The position numbers were made by a program, and so were the translations under genes. Positions 23,328 to 62,728 of a DNA stretch of 64,000 bases are shown here, in pieces. The notes under the pieces are model-generated. The model made no database searches. It worked only from the letters and a program-made list of their open reading frames with translations, and had not been told where the DNA came from. Source of the DNA: Natrinema marinum (GTDB taxonomy: Archaea > Halobacteriota > Halobacteria > Halobacteriales > Natrialbaceae); the NCBI RefSeq assembly GCF_024296685.1, contig NZ_CP100763.1:124001-188000 (forward strand). The letters are read 5' to 3'. The first letter of the stretch is position 1. Each line of letters opens with the position of its first letter.

Positions 23328-24083
23328 TTACGGTTCGCCGCGACGACCCTCCTCCTCGACCGCGAGGTCGACCCGTTCGCCGAGCCACTCGAGGGCCCGA
23401 TCGACCGTCTCGGGGTCGGTGCCGGTCACCTTCAGCCGGTTTCGCCGCTCCGTGGCGGGGTAGCTGCCGATCGTCACGTCGAACCGCTCGCGAACGCCGT
23501 CGATGGCCGCGGCCATCGACCCCTCCGGCTGGGGCGTGTACGCCACCCGTGAGACCGCGTCGCCGCTGAACTCCCCGGCGACGCGCTCGAACAGCGCCTG
23601 CATCTCCGCCGGCACGCCCGGGAACGCGTAGACGTTCTCGAGGACGCAGCCGGGACAGAGCCCTTCGGGGTTGAGTACCGGTCGACTCCCCGCCGGCAGG
23701 GCCGCCCAGGCGTCGACGTCGAAATCGAGCTCCTCGGCCGTGACCGTCTCCGGGTCGAGCCCTCGATAGTCCGCGACGGTCTCGAGGACGTCACGACGAA
23801 CGGACTCGTCGACGACCAGCTCGCGGTCGAACGCGTCCGCGAGCGCGTCGGCGGTGACGTCGTCGTGGGTGCCGCCGAGCCCGCCGGTCACGATCGCAGC
23901 GTCGACCGCGCTCGTCCACTCGCGGATCGTCGTTGCGATTCGGTCGCGGTCGTCCGGGATCGTCAGGATCCGATCGACGGTCGCGCCGCTGTCGGTCAGC
24001 CGGGTCGCGAGCCACTGGGCGTTCGCGTTCGCGATGTCCCCGGCGAGCACTTCGTCGCCGACGGTGAGGATGGCGACCTCCAT
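23328..24083 (-). CDS. CinA-like molybdopterin-binding-domain protein
   Basis: 251 aa from the ATG at 24083. It has the MoCF_biosynth/CinA N-terminal pattern MEVAILTVGDEVLAGDIANANAQWLA and VTGGLGGTHDDVTADALADAF (the GGLGxTxDD motif). The family includes nicotinamide-nucleotide amidase relatives and molybdopterin adenylyl transferases; which applies is unknown. An alternative start at 24146 adds 21 residues. It is close to coaBC on the same strand. Confidence 0.8.
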   Translation of the reverse strand: MEVAILTVGDEVLAGDIANANAQWLATRLTDSGATVDRILTIPDDRDRIATTIREWTSAVDAAIVTGGLGGTHDDVTADALADAFDRELVVDESVRRDVLETVADYRGLDPETVTAEELDFDVDAWAALPAGSRPVLNPEGLCPGCVLENVYAFPGVPAEMQALFERVAGEFSGDAVSRVAYTPQPEGSMAAAIDGVRERFDVTIGSYPATERRNRLKVTGTDPETVDRALEWLGERVDLAVEEEGRRGEP

Positions 24084-24146
24084 CGACCGACTCGAGGCGG
24101 GCAGACGGCAAAAGGATACGGTCCGAGGCATCTCCGTCTCTGCCAT

Positions 24147-24492
24147 TGCAGTATTAGTCGCACATCTCCTCTCTTTCGACCGACCTTGTAACGAGCGCTC
24201 GATACAGGGGGAAACGTCTCTCGTCGACCCAACGAACCGCCTGCGGTGGCGCGCGCTGGACCGCGGTGAGGCACTGACGAACCGCGGTATATCACTGCGC
24301 GAGGGATGAGCGAACGAAGTGAGCGAGTCGGCTGGGGAGGGCGTGACAATCCCCTCTGTCCACGATCGCAGGACGCTTCGTCTTCTTCATCCTGAGCAGA
24401 ACGCACCGTTCAATCCACGGAAGTAGTGAGCAAACTCACCGTTCTGGCTTCGGGCTATCGGTCACGTATAGAACGCGGGCCACCAACTGCTG
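24147..24492. other. Intergenic region without supportable gene
   Basis: No open frame here has haloarchaeal composition. It contains the G/A-rich GAGCGAACGAAGTGAGCGAG block (about 24308-24327), a kind of spacer sequence frequent in haloarchaeal genomes. Nothing else is visible. Confidence 0.35.
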
Positions 24493-37051: not shown

Positions 37052-37065
37052 ATGGACTCGCCGGG
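37052..37065. repeat. attL: 14-bp copy of tRNA-Ala 3' end
   Basis: ATGGACTCGCCGGG here is identical to 62656-62669, where it covers the last 13 nt of the tRNA-Ala gene plus one flanking base. The two copies flank 25.6 kb that contains an integrase beside the tRNA copy, as for tRNA-targeting tyrosine integrases. Confidence 0.8.
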
Positions 37066-41031: not shown

Positions 41032-41823
41032 TCAGATCAGCCCTCCGGCGAAGTCTGCTGCGCCGCCGACAAGATCCTGACCTGCGTCGACTGCTCCGTC
41101 GACAGCGTTGCCGCCGTGCTCGACCGCACCGTCGACGACATCGTCGCCCGTTTCGACGGCCCCGTCGACGGCGTCGTCACCAGTCGAGATCATGCCGCCG
41201 AAGAGGTCGCCGCCGGTGTCGACCACGCCGCCGGTGAGGTCGCCCACGAGGTCGCCGGTACCGTCCGCGGTATCGGTCGCACCGCCCCAGATATCGCCGA
41301 CCACGTCGCCGTAGAGATCGCCGGCGCCATCTGCAGCGTCTTTCGAGCCGCCCCAGATGTCGCCGAGCACGCCGGTGGTCCCGCTCCAGGCATCGCCGTA
41401 CATATCGCCAGTGCTGTTGGCGACATCTTTCGAGCCGCCCCAAATGTCACCAATAGCGCCGCCGATTCCGCCGGCAGCGTCGGTCGAGCCGTCCCACACG
41501 TCGCCGGCTGCACCGCCACCGCCAGCGGCCGCGTCTTTCGAGCCGCCCCAGAGGTCGCCGAGTGCGTCACCGAACCCAGACGCTGCCTCACCGGCACCGT
41601 CGAAGAAGCCGGTGAACCGATAGACGACGTAGGCGAGCGCGATCGCGCCGACTGCGAGTGCGACGTTGAACCCCTGACTGTTCTGAGCCGCGTCGCTCAC
41701 GTCGCTCGAGACGTTGCTCACGGCGTCGGCAGCAGGGTCGGCGACATCACCGACCGTGTCGACCGCTCCACCAGCCTTGTCAACGGCTTCGCCGGCCGCA
41801 AGCGCGGCTGCAGGACCCGGCAT
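41032..41823 (-). CDS. VP2-like repetitive virion membrane protein
   Basis: 263 aa. A hydrophobic segment (about 52-69) is followed by six GD-x-W-x-G units (about 89-182) and then an 11-residue repeat (GDDAVDGAVET type, about 214-255). Such periodicity predicts amphipathic or fibrous structure along the viral membrane. SH1 VP2 is a repeat-rich protein at the same place in the operon. Assignment to VP2 is positional and structural, not by alignment. Confidence 0.7.
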   Translation of the reverse strand: MPGPAAALAAGEAVDKAGGAVDTVGDVADPAADAVSNVSSDVSDAAQNSQGFNVALAVGAIALAYVVYRFTGFFDGAGEAASGFGDALGDLWGGSKDAAAGGGGAAGDVWDGSTDAAGGIGGAIGDIWGGSKDVANSTGDMYGDAWSGTTGVLGDIWGGSKDAADGAGDLYGDVVGDIWGGATDTADGTGDLVGDLTGGVVDTGGDLFGGMISTGDDAVDGAVETGDDVVDGAVEHGGNAVDGAVDAGQDLVGGAADFAGGLI

Positions 41824-53724: not shown

Positions 53725-54312
53725 ATGAATCTGCAACAGCACGAGAACCGCGACGACATGAAGGTCTGGCTTAGCCAGAACGAAGTAGAACAGTTGCTCG
53801 AGGCTGCCGACGATACCCAGCAGCGGATCGCGTTCGCACTTGGGGCGCGGTGCGGGCTCCGCTCACACGAGGTCCTCGACGTTGCGCCGGAGGATATCGT
53901 CGATACCGACGCCGGGACGATGCTCCGCGTGTGGCACGGGAAGGGAGACAAGTTCCGTGAGACGCCGGTCCCGCGAGATCTCGCGACGACTATCCGGACG
54001 GTCGACGACGTACGCGACGCACCGTCCAGCTCGTCGCTCGTCAAGATCACGAGTACGCGGTCACTCCGACGATGGGTTCGATCGGCGGCCGACCAACTGT
54101 ACGACGAGACGGGAGACGCTGGGTGGGACCATCTCGGCTTCCACGATCTCCGCCGTACCTGGGCGACCGCGCTCGCCTCCGACGATGTTGATCCGCTCCT
54201 GGTCTGTGACTGGGGCGGATGGAACGACCTCGAGACCTTCCTCGAGCATTATCGGGGTAGCTACAGCCCCGAGGCGCAACAGCGAGAGCGAGGAAAAGTA
54301 GACTGGCTGTAG
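53725..54312 (+). CDS. Minimal tyrosine recombinase
   Basis: 195 aa, so only the catalytic domain and a short leader; the usual N-terminal core-binding domain is missing or reduced. Catalytic residues: Arg46 (CGLRSHE), Lys73/76 (HGKGDKFRETPVP), His140-x2-Arg143 (FHDLRRTWATA), Trp166 (WGGW) and Tyr176 (LEHYRGSY). It directly follows the site family at 50215-53722, pointing away from it. I infer that it recombines those sites. Similar short integrases are frequent in haloarchaea. Confidence 0.8.
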   Translation: MNLQQHENRDDMKVWLSQNEVEQLLEAADDTQQRIAFALGARCGLRSHEVLDVAPEDIVDTDAGTMLRVWHGKGDKFRETPVPRDLATTIRTVDDVRDAPSSSSLVKITSTRSLRRWVRSAADQLYDETGDAGWDHLGFHDLRRTWATALASDDVDPLLVCDWGGWNDLETFLEHYRGSYSPEAQQRERGKVDWL

Positions 54313-54321
54313 GAACCTCGT

Positions 54322-55533
54322 TCAGTCCGCGAAATCCAGCGTTGCTTGTTTGGCGTAGCCACCGATCTCCGTCCGCTTGTCACTGAATTCGTCCGGGGTC
54401 ATGGCCCCACACCGCAGCTCGTAGATTCGCTCTCGGTCGGTCTCGGTGAGTTCGTCGCCATAGATGCTCTCTCTGAGATAGTAGCCGAGAGCCTCGCCGA
54501 GATACGGCGGTACCGCGTTGCCGATCTGCTTTCGAATCGAGACGAGGCCGCCGTCGAAGCGGTACGTATCGGGGAACGTCTGGAGCCTCGCGCCTTCGCG
54601 AGGGGTGAGTCCACGATCTTGGAACGGGTGAATACACCGTGCGCTCGAGGGTTTCGACATATTCGACGTGATCGCGACCGCCGGTTCGTCCGAACTGAGA
54701 CGAGAGTAGGAGTTGTGATAGCCGGAGGAAGGCTGTAGCTCGTCGGGAATGGCCGTTCGGTTCCCCCCATCGGGGATGTGAGAAATCATCTCGACCATGT
54801 CATCCGAGTGGCTCGCAGCGATGTGAGCAGACAGTTCCTCGCTACCGTTTCTGAGATCCTGTTGGAGAAGCGTCTGGGGCTCTGCGTCGTACTCCGTGAT
54901 CTCTTCGCCGGGACCGACCTCCGGAAGGTCACCGATCCCGTCCATTACGCCGGGCGTCCGCACTGGGTTCAACTCGAACCCGTCAAACGGATGCTCTCGG
55001 ATGTCCTTTTTCGTCGCGATCGCGACAAGTCGACGTCGGTGCTGTGGGACGCCGAAGTCGGATGCTTTGACGACCCTGTGGGTCACGTCGTAGCCGATCA
55101 GATCGAACGACTTCTCGACAGCTTCGAGGAACTTCCCGTCAGCGGTATTCTGGATGCCGCGGACGTTCTCGAAGAGCGCCGCGTCGGGCTCGAGTTCGTT
55201 CACCCAGCTGATGAAGTTCGTAAAGAGATGGTTCCGATCGTCGGAGCCGTCGGGGCTTACGACTTCGGAGAACCCCTGACACGGGGGGCCACCCGCGACC
55301 AAATCAATCGTGTCCTGACCGACGAGGTCGACGATTTCATGGTTACCAACATCCCGGATATCTCTCGTGATATCGTCCGGCTTTAGACCGTCTCGGTTCT
55401 TCGCGAACGTAGACCTCGCGTCCTCGTCTACCTCGACGGCGTGTTCCAATTCAAAGCCGGCTCTCTCCAACCCGATAGAGAGCCCTCCTGCGCCGGCAAA
55501 TAAATCAACGTAGGTAAGAGTCCGGTCACCCAT
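54322..55533 (-). CDS. DNA (cytosine-5) methyltransferase
   Basis: 403 aa with motif I LFAGAGGLSIGLERAG (11-26), motif IV GGPPCQGFSE with Cys85, ENV motif at 122-124, and the C-terminal motif RLQTFPDTYRF region. It methylates C5 of cytosine in a specific DNA site; the sequence is unknown. Paired with a divergent PD-(D/E)XK protein, it looks like a type II restriction-modification system. An ATTAAATA box (55558-55565) fits a leaderless start at 55533. Confidence 0.9.
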   Translation of the reverse strand: MGDRTLTYVDLFAGAGGLSIGLERAGFELEHAVEVDEDARSTFAKNRDGLKPDDITRDIRDVGNHEIVDLVGQDTIDLVAGGPPCQGFSEVVSPDGSDDRNHLFTNFISWVNELEPDAALFENVRGIQNTADGKFLEAVEKSFDLIGYDVTHRVVKASDFGVPQHRRRLVAIATKKDIREHPFDGFELNPVRTPGVMDGIGDLPEVGPGEEITEYDAEPQTLLQQDLRNGSEELSAHIAASHSDDMVEMISHIPDGGNRTAIPDELQPSSGYHNSYSRLSSDEPAVAITSNMSKPSSARCIHPFQDRGLTPREGARLQTFPDTYRFDGGLVSIRKQIGNAVPPYLGEALGYYLRESIYGDELTETDRERIYELRCGAMTPDEFSDKRTEIGGYAKQATLDFAD

Positions 55534-55721: not shown

Positions 55722-56903
55722 ATGAGCGTGGACATCACGGACGACGAACAGGAAAAGATCGACGGGTTTCTCTCTGATTACTTCGACGTAGACCTCGATC
55801 AACGTCTCCTCGACTACAGTGAGGACGATAGCGAGGAGTCATCGGTCGACGAAGCCGACGAGATTGAGGAACTTGTCGATCGAACCAGGAACATCTACGA
55901 CGAGCGCGGGAAAGGCTATCTAGGTCTTGCGCTCTCTTTCATCTTGTCCGTCGAGGACCTCTCGCAGGCGGATCCGTGGCTTGCGGAGTTCCAGCCGGAC
56001 CTCAACTGGGAAGACGACATCCTCCCGCGGTACGAACAGAAGGGCGTTGATTATCGGACCGGCCGTAACCTCGACACCCTCTCGCTCCGGTACAACGATC
56101 ATGAGGTCGGAATTCGGGGATGTATCAACGACATCGGTGACTTCTTCCACCAGACAATGAGCCGGACGAACTTTCCGAACGCTCCGGGCCACTACACCGG
56201 CAACTGGAAAGACCACATCGAGGTCCTCGAGTCGTCGTTTGCCCTCTCGAGAGCAGGACGCCGAGAAGCAGCGGAGCGAATCATCGAGCTAGGGCTCGAT
56301 CGCCTGCAGTCGAAGGACTACCCGAGACGGGAGCCCGCGTTCTCACAGCCGTTCCTCGAGATCCTCAACGACTACGAGCGAAAAGACGACAACGAGATGG
56401 GCGGGCTGGCTTACCAGGCGATGGTGTACGGCTACGCGACGGCCGAGTGGACGCATCTATCACTCCGAGCGAGTAGCGTCCGAACGGGATCCTCACGACA
56501 GCATCGGTTCGGGGACATCGACGGCTATCATGGCCCGGACCTCATGATCTCGGTCGAAGCGAAGGACCGAGTCATCGACGAGTCGAATATCGACACCGAA
56601 CTCGGTACTATGATGAAGTTAGCCGAGCGGTCGACTACGATCTCGATCGCTGTCTGTCGGGAGGTCAAAGCAGACGCTCGAGAAACCCTACAGGAGGAGG
56701 GCGTGAAGGTCATCACTGATACGGACCTCCGAATTCAACTCCGAACCTGGGACTACCACAAACAGAATGTCGCGCTTCAGGGGATGGTTCACTTCCTCGA
56801 GCATATCGAAGAGAACCCGACGGCAACACGGCGACTGCTACGGTTCGTAGAAGATATTGATCCGAATAATTCTGCGTTGGCTCATCTCGACAGCGAAAAC
56901 TAA
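55722..56903 (+). CDS. Putative restriction endonuclease, PD-(D/E)XK
   Basis: 393 aa. The motif GPD-x5-EAK is complete: D273, E279 and K281 (GPDLMISVEAKD), preceded by GDID (264-267). The N-terminal half is acidic and helical, with a DRTRNIYDERGKGYLGLALSF block. No recognised type II subfamily. Its divergent position from a C5-methyltransferase, with a 188-bp shared control region, makes it the likely cognate nuclease. Specificity unknown. Confidence 0.7.
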   Translation: MSVDITDDEQEKIDGFLSDYFDVDLDQRLLDYSEDDSEESSVDEADEIEELVDRTRNIYDERGKGYLGLALSFILSVEDLSQADPWLAEFQPDLNWEDDILPRYEQKGVDYRTGRNLDTLSLRYNDHEVGIRGCINDIGDFFHQTMSRTNFPNAPGHYTGNWKDHIEVLESSFALSRAGRREAAERIIELGLDRLQSKDYPRREPAFSQPFLEILNDYERKDDNEMGGLAYQAMVYGYATAEWTHLSLRASSVRTGSSRQHRFGDIDGYHGPDLMISVEAKDRVIDESNIDTELGTMMKLAERSTTISIAVCREVKADARETLQEEGVKVITDTDLRIQLRTWDYHKQNVALQGMVHFLEHIEENPTATRRLLRFVEDIDPNNSALAHLDSEN

Positions 56904-56906
56904 TCT

Positions 56907-57530
56907 CTACTCATTTTCATCTGAATCCAGTCTCCTCTCTGCGATTCTCGGAGTTATCTCATAATCGGTTTCCGAACCTAACATGCTAATCGATACTACT
57001 GTGTCTTCTTCGATAACGTACTCATAAAGAGTTTCAACAGAACCCATGGTATGAAGGTGTACAAAATCTGCATAGGTCCCATCTCCTCTCTTTATTTTCC
57101 TAAATAGTCTCTCTTCATCTGGTTTTGTTCTTTCTACGTCAATATTGAGATCAACATTGTAGAGTTCACCCCGTTCATTTGTGCAAAGGTAGTATGACAC
57201 CCCAAGCGATTCCATAAACAATTCATCGGGATTCTTTCGGTCAACAGACGAATCCTCAATTCCCATATATATGAGCGCAAGCGTCGTTGCAATGTGATCG
57301 ACTTCCTGTTTGAGTAAATCATCGAATATTAACTCTCTGTCTTTTTCGCCAATATTATCAAATACAAATGACAAGTCTTCAAACGATTGTTTCACTTTTT
57401 CTCTTATTCTGTATTTAGCGTCTCTTTCTGCGCTTCGCGTCAAGTCAGAGTCGCCACTTAATACCTCTTCATCTCTAGCTGTAAGTATACCCGTATTCCG
57501 TCGATTGCTCCCATTATCTTTATTAGTCAT
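56907..57530 (-). CDS. Unknown AT-rich gene product
   Basis: 207 aa from ATG at 57530. N-terminal part polar (RNTGILTARDEEVLSGDSDLTRSAERDAKYRIREKVKQSFEDLSFVFDNI), C-terminal part with VVSISMLGSETDYEITPRIAE. AT-rich codons unlike the neighbours. Longer upstream reading lacks coding character. A cluster of CAGAC half-sites overlaps its promoter. Function unknown. Confidence 0.5.
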   Translation of the reverse strand: MTNKDNGSNRRNTGILTARDEEVLSGDSDLTRSAERDAKYRIREKVKQSFEDLSFVFDNIGEKDRELIFDDLLKQEVDHIATTLALIYMGIEDSSVDRKNPDELFMESLGVSYYLCTNERGELYNVDLNIDVERTKPDEERLFRKIKRGDGTYADFVHLHTMGSVETLYEYVIEEDTVVSISMLGSETDYEITPRIAERRLDSDENE

Positions 57531-57541
57531 CGGTATCACTC

Positions 57542-57564
57542 CAGACGTCTGTACTAACACAGAC
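57542..57564. promoter_or_regulatory. Overlapping CAGAC palindromes at the promoter
   Basis: CAGACGTCTG (57542-57551) overlaps GTCTGT-N6-ACAGAC (57547-57564), so three CAGAC half-sites lie between about -12 and -34 of the gene starting at 57530. An operator that blocks TATA-box access is the natural reading. Confidence 0.45.
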
Positions 57565-57632
57565 GAAGACTTATTACATAAATCTACGTAATAGTAGTTA
57601 GAACAGATGTAACTCAAGAAGGGATAGCCTAA

Positions 57633-57821
57633 ACAGGTTGAATCGCCCTGTGCAGCACCCAACCGGCTGCCACACAGGACGGGTGCTGCCCAGGTCGTAG
57701 AAATCACCTTACGGATCGGGTTTGCAGAACCGCAAGGCGATCTATTGCGAGTGGACCTTGTATTCCACTCATTATAGATTTTGCCCCTCGCGGTAGATCC
57801 GCGAGCGACTGGAATGGTCGC
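57633..57821. other. Hairpin cluster, possible structured RNA or origin
   Basis: Gene-free sequence between two divergent genes holds at least five inverted repeats. A 14-bp arm with one mismatch is at 57647-57660/57681-57694. GAGTGGA/TCCACTC is at 57749-57755/57764-57770. CTCGCGG/CCGCGAG is at 57787-57793/57799-57805. GCGAC/GTCGC is at 57805-57809/57817-57821. An alternative ACAGG/CCTGT pair (57633-57651) competes with the first. TTGC/GCAA at 57722-57734 adds one more. Confidence 0.4.
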
Positions 57822-57833
57822 AGATCCAGAAAA

Positions 57834-58454
57834 ATGGGTCGACAACACGTAGAACGAGTAATCCGCCTCCTGAAAGGAGGCAAAGACTGTAGTGGAGAGA
57901 TGATCGAGATCGCACATGGGTTCCTTCGTGAAGGGATCGGTCCCGCTCACGAAGGAATCAAATCCAGTGATACTGAGGCAGAACTCAGTTTATTACTGAC
58001 TTATGATCCAAAAACCTCACTAGATCATCTGCAAGAAGTCGGGCTCATAGAGTCTGACCCAGAAGAAGCCGATGATCTGCGTACTTTCGCTATCGCAGAA
58101 TGGTTAGGAACCGATGGCGAAATCATCAATGGAGAGGTAGAAGATACGGCGGAAGACGCTCTTGAGGCACTTATCGACCACATGCACGCTACTGATGCCA
58201 GCGATTCGCCTGCAATTGCAGATGGTGGCGTGACTCATCGAGGTGTTCTCAAAGATGAGTTCGGCATTGAGCCGGCGAGAATAGAAAACCGACTCCGAAC
58301 CGGCGATCCGGTCAAAACACTTCGAACCGCTGTTTCAGCAATCCAGGAACATCCAGGTCTCGCTACGCGAGGAGACTACGGGATGATAACTTTCCGGTAT
58401 GAGGCGTACCGCTATACACTTACAAGTGAGGCGGTCAATCTCTATCGGATATAG
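57834..58454 (+). CDS. Unknown acidic protein after the hairpin region
   Basis: 206 aa: MGRQHVERVIRLLKGGKDC..., with a repeat-like structure of helical segments (HEGIKSSDTEAELSLLLTYDP; FGIEPARIENRLRTGDPVKTLRTAVSAIQEHPGLA). The C-terminal end resembles a winged-helix segment. AT-rich. Not recognised. A start 13 bp after the last hairpin suggests the hairpins act in its leader. Confidence 0.45.
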   Translation: MGRQHVERVIRLLKGGKDCSGEMIEIAHGFLREGIGPAHEGIKSSDTEAELSLLLTYDPKTSLDHLQEVGLIESDPEEADDLRTFAIAEWLGTDGEIINGEVEDTAEDALEALIDHMHATDASDSPAIADGGVTHRGVLKDEFGIEPARIENRLRTGDPVKTLRTAVSAIQEHPGLATRGDYGMITFRYEAYRYTLTSEAVNLYRI

Positions 58455-58476: not shown

Positions 58477-58770
58477 TTATTCTCGTAGTATTTTAGGCGA
58501 CGGTTTCGGTCGATTCTCGACATCGAGTTCTCCATCGAGATATTCCTGTCCCTCACATGTGATTTCGTACATGTGACTATCCTCAAAGAGTGGGGCAACC
58601 AGTCCTACCTGAGAAAGCAGTTGACAACGCTCCTTGACCCGCCCACGCGATGCGGTGAGATTGACTGCTCGAGACATATGCCGCGGTGTCGACCACGGAT
58701 CTTCCGAGAGATGCTCAAGGATCCGTTCGTCGAGCGTACACATCCAGCGGGCGGGTTTTCGGTTCGTCAC
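58477..58770 (-). CDS. PhiH1-repressor-like winged-helix protein 2
   Basis: 97 aa with the PhiH1 repressor pattern: WMCTLDERILEHLSEDPWSTPRHMSRAVNLTASRGRVKERCQLLSQVGLVAPL ... YEITCEGQEYLDGELD. Such proteins control lysogeny in haloarchaeal viruses. It overlaps the upstream repressor gene (ATGA) and probably shares its transcript. Confidence 0.75.
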   Translation of the reverse strand: MTNRKPARWMCTLDERILEHLSEDPWSTPRHMSRAVNLTASRGRVKERCQLLSQVGLVAPLFEDSHMYEITCEGQEYLDGELDVENRPKPSPKILRE

Positions 58771-59078
58771 GATTCAGAGGTTTCGCTTGCAGTGGGGCCG
58801 TCTCTCGAGCCGTTTCCATTGAGGTAGACCTCGTTTTCGGCGTCGTACTCCTCGTCGAGATATGCTTCGCCACGTTCAGTGATCGTGTAAACCCCATTTC
58901 CGAGAGGAGTGAGAAGACCATGCTCTGCAAGCTTCTTGCATCTCCGGGATACTGATGATTGAGAGATTCTAATCCCGTCTCGGTCGGTGAGATCTCCTAC
59001 TCGTCCTGCATCCTCGTCTCGAATGATCTCCAGAATACGATCGTCCCAGATAGTCATCCATGTCCCAGATTGTCTCAT
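58767..59078 (-). CDS. PhiH1-repressor-like winged-helix protein 1
   Basis: 103 aa: WMTIWDDRILEIIRDEDAGRVGDLTDRDGIRISQSSVSRRCKKLAEHGLLTPLGNGVYTITERGEAYLDEEYDAE. The same fold as its downstream neighbour, with a different recognition helix. A tandem repressor pair divergent from the early genes suggests a lysis-lysogeny switch. Confidence 0.75.
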   Translation of the reverse strand: MRQSGTWMTIWDDRILEIIRDEDAGRVGDLTDRDGIRISQSSVSRRCKKLAEHGLLTPLGNGVYTITERGEAYLDEEYDAENEVYLNGNGSRDGPTASETSES

Positions 59079-60762: not shown

Positions 60763-61538
60763 TCCGCGATGAGTACCTGCGGCGTCTCCTCGACGCAGCT
60801 CACGTCGACTTGTACCTATCCGCCGTTGACGGGGCTCGTATCTACTGGCCATGGCGGATGCAGCCTGTCCACGAAGCGAGCGAGCGCCATCGCAACGCCT
60901 GTGAGAGCTACGTCGTCGACTCATCGTTCAAGGACGAGTCGATCACCAACGAGGACGCACTCGATACGGCGTACGCGATGGACGCAGAGATGGTCGTTCT
61001 CGCCGATGTCTGGCACGACAAGGACGAGACGGTCACTGCAATCCTCGAGGGTATCGAACTCTACGACGACCACTCCTACGACGGGAAGGTGATTGCTCCG
61101 CTCCAACCGCCACACGACGAGTGTTTTCTCGAACTCGAGGGACAGGTCGACGTGTACGCTGTCGGCGGTGTGAAAGACGCCGGCGATGAAACGCGGATCG
61201 AGGCCGCACGGTGCGTTCGAGATGTCGCTGGTTCCGATATTCACCTACATGGACTCGGATACGGCGCAACGGATGGGATAGTCGACGCGATCCGAGCGGA
61301 TCCTGAACTGCTCGATTCGATCGACTACTCGACGCCGATCCAAAGCGCCAACGGGACCGATGTCGCTCCAGGGAAAGAGCGGATGTCGGTCGTCGCCGCA
61401 CGCGCCGCCGCTCAACTCGTCGAGGATCTGCGGAAGTTCTCGCCCTACGCGGAACAACCACAGCCGGAGGACCTTCGTGGTGAAGGCCAGTCCAGTCTCG
61501 ACGAGGTAGCCGTTCGAACCGATGGAGGTGACCGATGA
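60759..61538 (+). CDS. TGT/DpdA-like TIM-barrel protein
   Basis: 259 aa. An N-terminal VVDSSFKDESI, then VVLADVWHDKDETV, KVIAPLQPPHDECFLEL, DVYAVGGVKDAGDETRIEAAR, IHLHGLGYGATDGIVDAI and LLDSIDYSTP. The order Asp-rich loop, GG-loop, H-x-hydrophobic-G loop and SxD-like end matches the tRNA-guanine-transglycosylase superfamily, and among virus proteins DpdA-like enzymes that insert 7-deazaguanines into DNA. No metal cysteines are visible. The assignment is by pattern only. It overlaps the integrase by 4 bp. Confidence 0.5.
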   Translation: MIRDEYLRRLLDAAHVDLYLSAVDGARIYWPWRMQPVHEASERHRNACESYVVDSSFKDESITNEDALDTAYAMDAEMVVLADVWHDKDETVTAILEGIELYDDHSYDGKVIAPLQPPHDECFLELEGQVDVYAVGGVKDAGDETRIEAARCVRDVAGSDIHLHGLGYGATDGIVDAIRADPELLDSIDYSTPIQSANGTDVAPGKERMSVVAARAAAQLVEDLRKFSPYAEQPQPEDLRGEGQSSLDEVAVRTDGGDR

Positions 61539-62542
61539 ACGACGATCTCGAGCCGATCTCACCACGCGAAGCGGTCGACCTCTACGTCTCTCACCGTGAA
61601 CTCGAGGTGAGCGAGAAGACGCTCCAGAATCACAAGTACCGGCTCGACGCTTTCGTCGAGTGGTGCAACGAGGTCGGGATCGACAACCTCAACGATCTCA
61701 CCGGTCGGCATCTCCACCAATACCGGGTGTGGCGACAGGAGGACGTAAACATCGTCACGCTCCGCGGGCAGCTCGCGACGCTCCGCGTCTTCCTCGAGTT
61801 CTGTGCCTCGATCGACGCCGTCGAACCGGGGATGCGCGAGCGGGTGAAACTGCCGGACGTCGACCGCGGTGACGAAGCGCGCGACGAGATGCTCGAAGCC
61901 GATCGTGGCCACAAGATCATCGGCTACCTCGAGCGGTACAAGCGCGCGAGTCGCGACCACGTCATCATGGCGATCCTCTGGCACACGGGGATCCGCCTCG
62001 GGAGCCTTCGCGCGGTCGACCTCGAGGACTACGAGCCCGACGAGCAGTGCTTTTGGTTGCGGCACCGGCCCGACACGGGCACGCCGCTCAAGAATCAGGG
62101 GCCAGCCGAGCGGGCGATGGCGCTCGACGACTACTACTGCGATGTCCTCGACGAGTACATCCGTTTCCACCGCCACGATGTCGTGGACGAACACGGCCGC
62201 GAGCCGCTCGTCACGAGCGACCAGGGCCGGCTGAGTTCCGGACAGATTCGCTCGGAGGTGTACCGGCTTACGCAGCCCTGTATGGTCGGGGAGTGTCCTC
62301 ACGACCGCGATCCGGCGGACTGCGAAGCCACGGGATACGGTCACTACTACGACTGCCCGAGCAGTCTCTCGCCGCACACGATTCGGCGCGGGGCGATCAC
62401 GTACCAGCTCCGCGAGGACATTCCCGAGAAGATCGTCAGCGATCGGTGCGACGTGTCCTCGGAAGTCCTCGATCGCCACTACGACCGCCGTACAGACCGT
62501 GAGAAGATGGAACAGCGACGCGACTTTATCGAAGACCTATAA
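61535..62542 (+). CDS. int: Provirus tyrosine integrase
   Basis: 335 aa. An N-terminal SAM-like core-binding domain (about 10-100) is followed by the catalytic domain with Arg154 (WHTGIRLGSLRA), Lys186, His281-x2-Arg284 (PHTIRRGAITY) and Tyr316 (VLDRHYDRRT). A cysteine/histidine-rich insert (C249, C254, H256, C263, H270, C274) lies just before the HxxR box and probably holds zinc. It is beside the tRNA-Ala attachment site and points towards it, as expected for the integrase of this element. Confidence 0.9.
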   Translation: MNDDLEPISPREAVDLYVSHRELEVSEKTLQNHKYRLDAFVEWCNEVGIDNLNDLTGRHLHQYRVWRQEDVNIVTLRGQLATLRVFLEFCASIDAVEPGMRERVKLPDVDRGDEARDEMLEADRGHKIIGYLERYKRASRDHVIMAILWHTGIRLGSLRAVDLEDYEPDEQCFWLRHRPDTGTPLKNQGPAERAMALDDYYCDVLDEYIRFHRHDVVDEHGREPLVTSDQGRLSSGQIRSEVYRLTQPCMVGECPHDRDPADCEATGYGHYYDCPSSLSPHTIRRGAITYQLREDIPEKIVSDRCDVSSEVLDRHYDRRTDREKMEQRRDFIEDL

Positions 62543-62655: not shown

Positions 62656-62669
62656 ATGGACTCGCCGGG
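62656..62669. repeat. attR: 14-bp direct repeat in tRNA-Ala 3' end
   Basis: Identical to 37052-37065 (ATGGACTCGCCGGG). It covers the tRNA 3' end, so the tRNA gene stays intact after integration. Confidence 0.8.
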
Positions 62670-62728
62670 ATTTGAACCCGGGGCCTCTCCCATGCCAAGG
62701 GAGTGATCTACCTCTGATCTACGAGCCC
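62657..62728 (-). tRNA. tRNA-Ala (GGC)
   Basis: A 72-nt cloverleaf. The acceptor stem GGGCTCG/CGAGTCC contains the G3:U70 pair that identifies alanine tRNA. Anticodon loop TTGGCAT gives GGC. T arm CCGGG-TTCAAAT-CCCGG. It is the integration target of the element to its left. Confidence 0.95.

Follow-up and report, generated by a model that had tools for sequence, protein, structure and literature searches.

The hairpin locus and its surroundings

The window analysed here, a stretch of 64,000 nucleotides, is part of a 3.77-Mb haloarchaeal chromosome. Between two divergent genes, designated A (minus strand, 56907–57530) and B (plus strand, 57834–58454), lies a 300-bp gap that holds a run of hairpins, and this hairpin module adjoins a type II restriction-modification pair. 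The features considered are as follows.

54322–55533, minus strand: type II cytosine-5 DNA methyltransferase, cargo adjoining the hairpin module
55722–56903, plus strand: type II restriction enzyme (PADLOC REase_II, E 2e-28), cargo
56907–57530, minus strand: gene A, 207 aa, divergent partner of gene B
57564–57568, plus strand: BRE-like sequence CGAAG of the predicted promoter
57571–57576, plus strand: predicted TATA box (TTATTA), 75 nt before hairpin 1
57647–57694, plus strand: hairpin 1 (H1), with arms 57647–57660/57681–57694, cap CC/GG at 57663–57664/57677–57678 and a conserved 12-nt loop at 57665–57676
57703–57741, plus strand: hairpin 2 (H2), with arms 57703–57714/57730–57741 and analogous helices at other loci
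57740–57779, plus strand: hairpin 3 (H3), with outer helix 57740–57745/57774–57779 and inner helix 57749–57755/57764–57770
57787–57821, plus strand: two small hairpins, limited to the window and its nearest relative (L002)
57834–58454, plus strand: gene B (class B1), 206 aa, 3' of the predicted leader
61535–62542, plus strand: tyrosine integrase of the element, beside tRNA-Ala (62657–62728)

A second integrase gene occupies 53725–54312. A 14-nt direct repeat, ATGGACTCGCCGGG, is present at 37052–37065 and 62656–62669 and matches the 3' end of the tRNA-Ala gene; its two copies are possible attL and attR sites of a 25.6-kb integrated element. The window also contains a 79-nt direct repeat in four diverged copies (41240–41579). 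Related modules elsewhere are found near type IIG or DISARM-like methylases and UvrD helicases. Searches of the whole window with Rfam and ARAGORN returned tRNAs only.

Structure of the gap

The elements named in the original prediction are present in the sequence: a near-perfect 14-bp stem (H1), in which 13 of the 14 positions of the 14-nt arms are paired and the exception is T57651 opposite C57690; two 7-bp stems (the inner helix of H3 and 57787–57793/57799–57805); a 5-bp stem, GCGAC/GTCGC, within 57805–57821; and several CAGG elements (ACAGG at 57635–57639, CAGG at 57675–57678 and 57691–57694). The H2 stem and the outer helix of H3 had been missed. An ACAGG/CCTGT pairing, proposed as a competitor of the first stem, can form in the window (57635–57639/57647–57651) but is not conserved. 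CCTGT reads CCTGC in L002 and L045 and CCTGA in L003, and the upstream ACAGG is seen, beyond the window, in the nearest relative only. The interval 57600–57850 (251 nt) folds at −92.5 kcal/mol, compared with −73.0 ± 4.6 kcal/mol for shuffled sequences (z = −4.24; 0/200), and the GC content over the hairpins is 49–60%.

Conservation and covariation in related loci

When 125 genomes of the family were searched at the DNA level, a single close copy was recovered (L002, 90%), together with L003 and L004, two distant loci that match the window at H1 only and have a gene A homologue to the left and a gene to the right. The same hairpin is carried by L014, which was among the best matches of a gene A search in 391 genomes of the class. 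The A and B proteins of L014 are 100% identical to ones encoded on three plasmids of Halobacterium salinarum (pNRC100, PHS1 and PHS4). These plasmids carry the hairpin as well; the corresponding region is 115,513–115,883 of pNRC100 (minus strand) and 23,870–24,240 of PHS4, where H1 occupies 24,029–24,079, and it precedes a gene of 133 aa. A covariance model of H1 built on five loci retrieved L045 (E 0.005), and L017 was seen by inspection to have the same H1 form. H1 was picked by eye in the distant loci; it has the 12-nt loop GGCUnCCACACA in five haloarchaeal loci, and two more share its geometry with other stems. Across this seven-locus core the loop consensus is RGCUNCNACMCA and the cap reads CC/GG, TC/GA or CA/TG, with one C·A mismatch in L014.

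The stems are conserved in relatives, and the H1 arms show compensatory changes: 7 of 15 pairs have two-sided changes (0 of 2000 shuffles as high), 93.9% of cells are paired, and covariation is 0.32 compared with 0.14 in shuffles. These statistics were recomputed after removal of L046, which had been entered as a leader with a new stem and is a copy of an unrelated dispersed palindrome. For H2, the window and L002 differ by a C-G to T-A and an A·C to A-T change. At the place of H3, L003, L004 and L014 have other stems that are still complementary, and compensatory support is weaker than for H1; pair support for H3 was weak in a MAFFT-based count because the arms were misaligned.

About 20 loci, carried by integrated elements and by plasmids such as H. 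salinarum pNRC100 and PHS4, have the same layout: divergent gene, TATA box, H1, two or three more hairpins, start codon of gene B. The H1 loop sequence is alike in seven loci only, and model R2 did not retrieve loci outside this core, beyond which the homology of the leaders rests on position and gene order. The mean fold z of 20 leaders, anchored on the hairpin, was −3.3 versus −0.2 for 60 intergenic controls (p 2e-10); for a 160-nt interval that stops 40 nt short of B, and so involves no choice of hairpin, it was −2.1 versus −0.7 for controls (p 2e-5). By eye, the AGGG arm of H2 may pair either upstream or downstream in L004, L045, L060, L067 and L069, and such alternative pairing would suit a switch. 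Rfam gave no family at or above its gathering threshold, and a search of 14 related loci at E 0.05 returned no family either. The conserved folded RNA is previously undescribed.

Several matches were set aside. DNA matches of L005–L009 to 57784–57812 lie within protein-coding sequence as far as read, and those of R1 to L047–L049 and the IMG/VR sequence L107 are apparently coding; both sets were attributed to chance.

Predicted promoter, spacing and direction of transcription

The predicted promoter would place the start site at about 57597–57603, about 45 nt before H1. A TATA-like hexamer falls within the same 12-nt interval from −75 of H1 in 14 of 20 loci, and 2 of 5000 random shifts were as good. 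With a strict threshold, a TATA box pointing toward B was found in 11 loci, versus 3–5 for the other orientation, and some of the TATA-like hexamers are preceded by CGAAA, the haloarchaeal BRE (PMC4983044). The H1-to-start-codon distance of B is 153–209 nt, with the exception of L015 (267 nt), and in related loci the structure lies between the predicted TATA box and that start codon. The interval −38 to −22 of B, in which the TATA box of a leaderless gene would have to lie, showed no TATA enrichment. A full Shine-Dalgarno sequence, GGAGGTGAT, precedes B in L105 and L065. Mismatches in the helices (45 G-U versus 44 A-C) gave no strand signal, and several minus strands fold equally well or better; we infer the strand from the promoter.

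Genes flanking the hairpins

Relatives of gene A are present in 245 of the 391 class genomes. The members tested received no Pfam, NCBIfam or PHROG name, and the AlphaFold model of gene A (mean pLDDT 86.5) had no PDB match at E 0.001. For B1, the gene B of the window, homologues were found in L002 and in L015/L054 (Haloparvum sedimenti). It matched no family, and its predicted structure (pLDDT 45) was unusable, with no fold assigned. Searches of viral contigs with A and B1 gave no matches.

At most loci B is of winged-helix type. A small winged-helix-like gene (class B2) lies directly 3' of the hairpins in L004, L014, L017 and L045, with strong matches in about 16 genomes and in Haloplanus, Natrinema and Halalkalicoccus plasmids; almost all of these loci have a folded stretch 5' of B2, including ones whose loop and stems are different. 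The L003 leader is followed by a gene (L003:1678–2349, plus strand) that is unlike B1 and B2 and matches PHROG 18169 (unknown function; E 5e-22). Since B1 and B2 have no detectable homology, a B-specific feedback loop is unsupported. Immediately to the right of B, the window has two neighbouring winged-helix genes (58477–59078; PHROG 2440) that also occur in L004, and because B differs between the two loci, it seems to have been exchanged while its flanks were conserved.

Eight loci have gene A as the divergent neighbour, and six have an HFX_2341-like CARF/winged-helix protein (PF19810/PF22665) there, so that the divergent partner varies while leader and B persist; the window has family A in this position, and L045 has no gene A within roughly 9 kb on each side. 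HFX_2341 has been studied in Haloferax mediterranei, in a paper whose title names a repressor of CRISPR-associated genes (PMC11434293).

Three further loci, L018, L030 and L032 (1–3.5 kb), have gene A relatives with another folded leader and another B gene (class B3). Their neighbour encodes a 430–440-aa protein without a Pfam match, which resembles tRNA-guanine transglycosylases by eye only. In these three loci, inspection by eye showed no conserved frame that would make the gap an ORF. Family A members in L020–L039 have more core-like chromosomal neighbours and mostly no obvious upstream fold (L030 and L032 excepted).

A proposed structured leader and its alternatives

Because the TATA–H1–ATG spacing is fixed, the promoter points toward B and no TATA box is proximal to B, we read the structured stretch as the 5' leader of B. 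With moderate confidence, we propose that the gap comprises a promoter and a structured leader of ~230 nt at the 5' end of the gene B transcript, and that the folded leader restrains translation of B; it probably acts in cis. Transcription would begin ~45 nt before H1 and run through H1, H2 and H3 into gene B, which would lack a separate promoter. In its folded state the leader would lower B translation, and a trans-acting factor or ligand reading the conserved H1 loop could shift the fold and so set B output. The loop may be read by family A, by a factor of the host or by a ligand; B is an unlikely reader, given that the same loop is found before B genes that are not related to each other: B1 in the window, B2 in L004 and L014, and a third protein in L003. 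In the wider family, B is usually a winged-helix regulator (B2) opposite family A or an HFX_2341-like CARF protein, on elements often with defence genes, and B1 may itself be a regulator.

The original prediction had offered a structured RNA or an origin. The former is supported by the covariation, by the fold energy and by the constant distance of the predicted promoter. Among its proposals, attenuator or regulatory RNA is the best class, although the RNA would be the leader of gene B rather than free-standing. The iteron-like origin finds no support: iteron-like direct repeats, an AT-rich tract and an adjacent initiator, as expected of iteron, orc or RepH-type origins, were not found, no initiator is linked across loci, and the TATA–hairpin–start codon order is fixed, which an origin would not need. 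The RepH origin requires an AT-rich region and repH (PMC1906834).

Free-standing RNAs of mobile elements offer another reading. Phage P4 CI and P1/P7 C4 are structured antisense RNAs that come from the leader region of a mobile element, and Rfam family RF03163 is a target element of C4. Release of the RNA from the leader in this manner, as a trans-acting sRNA that pairs with other transcripts to provide immunity or copy control while B is just a downstream gene, is in our view unlikely. The exposed, sequence-conserved loop and the integrative or plasmid nature of the elements would fit it, as would a weak Rfam match of 57774–57824 to c4-a1b1 (21.9 bits, E 0.0018); however, that score is far under the gathering score of 46.7, 14 other loci have no such match, and the spacing to the B start codon is preserved, for which a free sRNA would have no use. 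Compared with the P4 and P1/P7 RNAs, the present leader is archaeal, lacks a significant Rfam match and has no complementary targets shown.

Two readings without any role for RNA appear less probable again. The stems could be protein-binding palindromes of a divergent A/B promoter, as inverted repeats between divergent regulators commonly are operators and both B2 and the CARF partners are winged-helix proteins. We consider this improbable, since the stems lie well downstream of the TATA box and the arms change compensatorily while the loop stays, the opposite of operator behaviour. Slightly less credence still goes to hairpins that act as DNA, whether as a recombination site or as a rolling-circle origin or nick site like that of the pleolipovirus SNJ2. 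The element is integrative with a tyrosine integrase, pair types do not tell RNA from DNA, and conserved hairpins on haloarchaeal mobile DNA do serve as origins in SNJ2-like viruses (PMC13107129). In SNJ2 and Rep-Arvir, however, the hairpin origin lies downstream of the Rep gene (PMC13107129), whereas no such Rep was noticed beside the hairpins in a search made without a Rep-Arvir profile; the stretch has no iterons and is not AT-rich, and a DNA role leaves the fixed TATA and start-codon spacing unexplained.

Comparison with known leaders and significance

The leader reading has its nearest counterpart in archaeal riboswitches, of which the fluoride riboswitch of Thermococcus kodakarensis is mentioned as a natural example in PMC8241225. 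Both have a conserved folded leader before the start codon and an inferred translational action. In contrast, the present leader has another structure and no known ligand, and it precedes unrelated genes on mobile elements of haloarchaea. By 2021, experiments had established a single natural archaeal riboswitch (PMC8241225). In Haloferax volcanii, 72% of the transcripts that encode proteins have no leader, and control of translation through structured leaders has been described as not typical of haloarchaea (PMC4983044). A covarying leader at about 20 haloarchaeal loci, including plasmids of the model species H. salinarum, makes leader-based control directly testable and offers a way into the regulation of mobile elements and of the restriction or CARF genes that they carry. 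More speculatively, and we would not expect it on present data, the hairpin could represent a novel class of leader RNA, native to haloarchaea, that senses a signal and moves among regulator genes on mobile elements, the same hairpin controlling unrelated B genes (B1, B2 and another) opposite family A or CARF. If true, expression of element or defence genes would be tied to a cellular signal.

A dispersed palindrome

The palindrome that accounts for L046 has the form CCTTGTGCAACA-N20-24-TGTTGCACAAGG. About 14 copies occur in genomes of a single haloarchaeal family, Halalkalicoccus among them. Copies were located in L112, L115–L119, L125–L129 and L131–L133 (positions 1501–1550) and at L098:12381–12427. 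The arms are constant and the loops variable, and the palindrome is possibly a binding site or an IS end.
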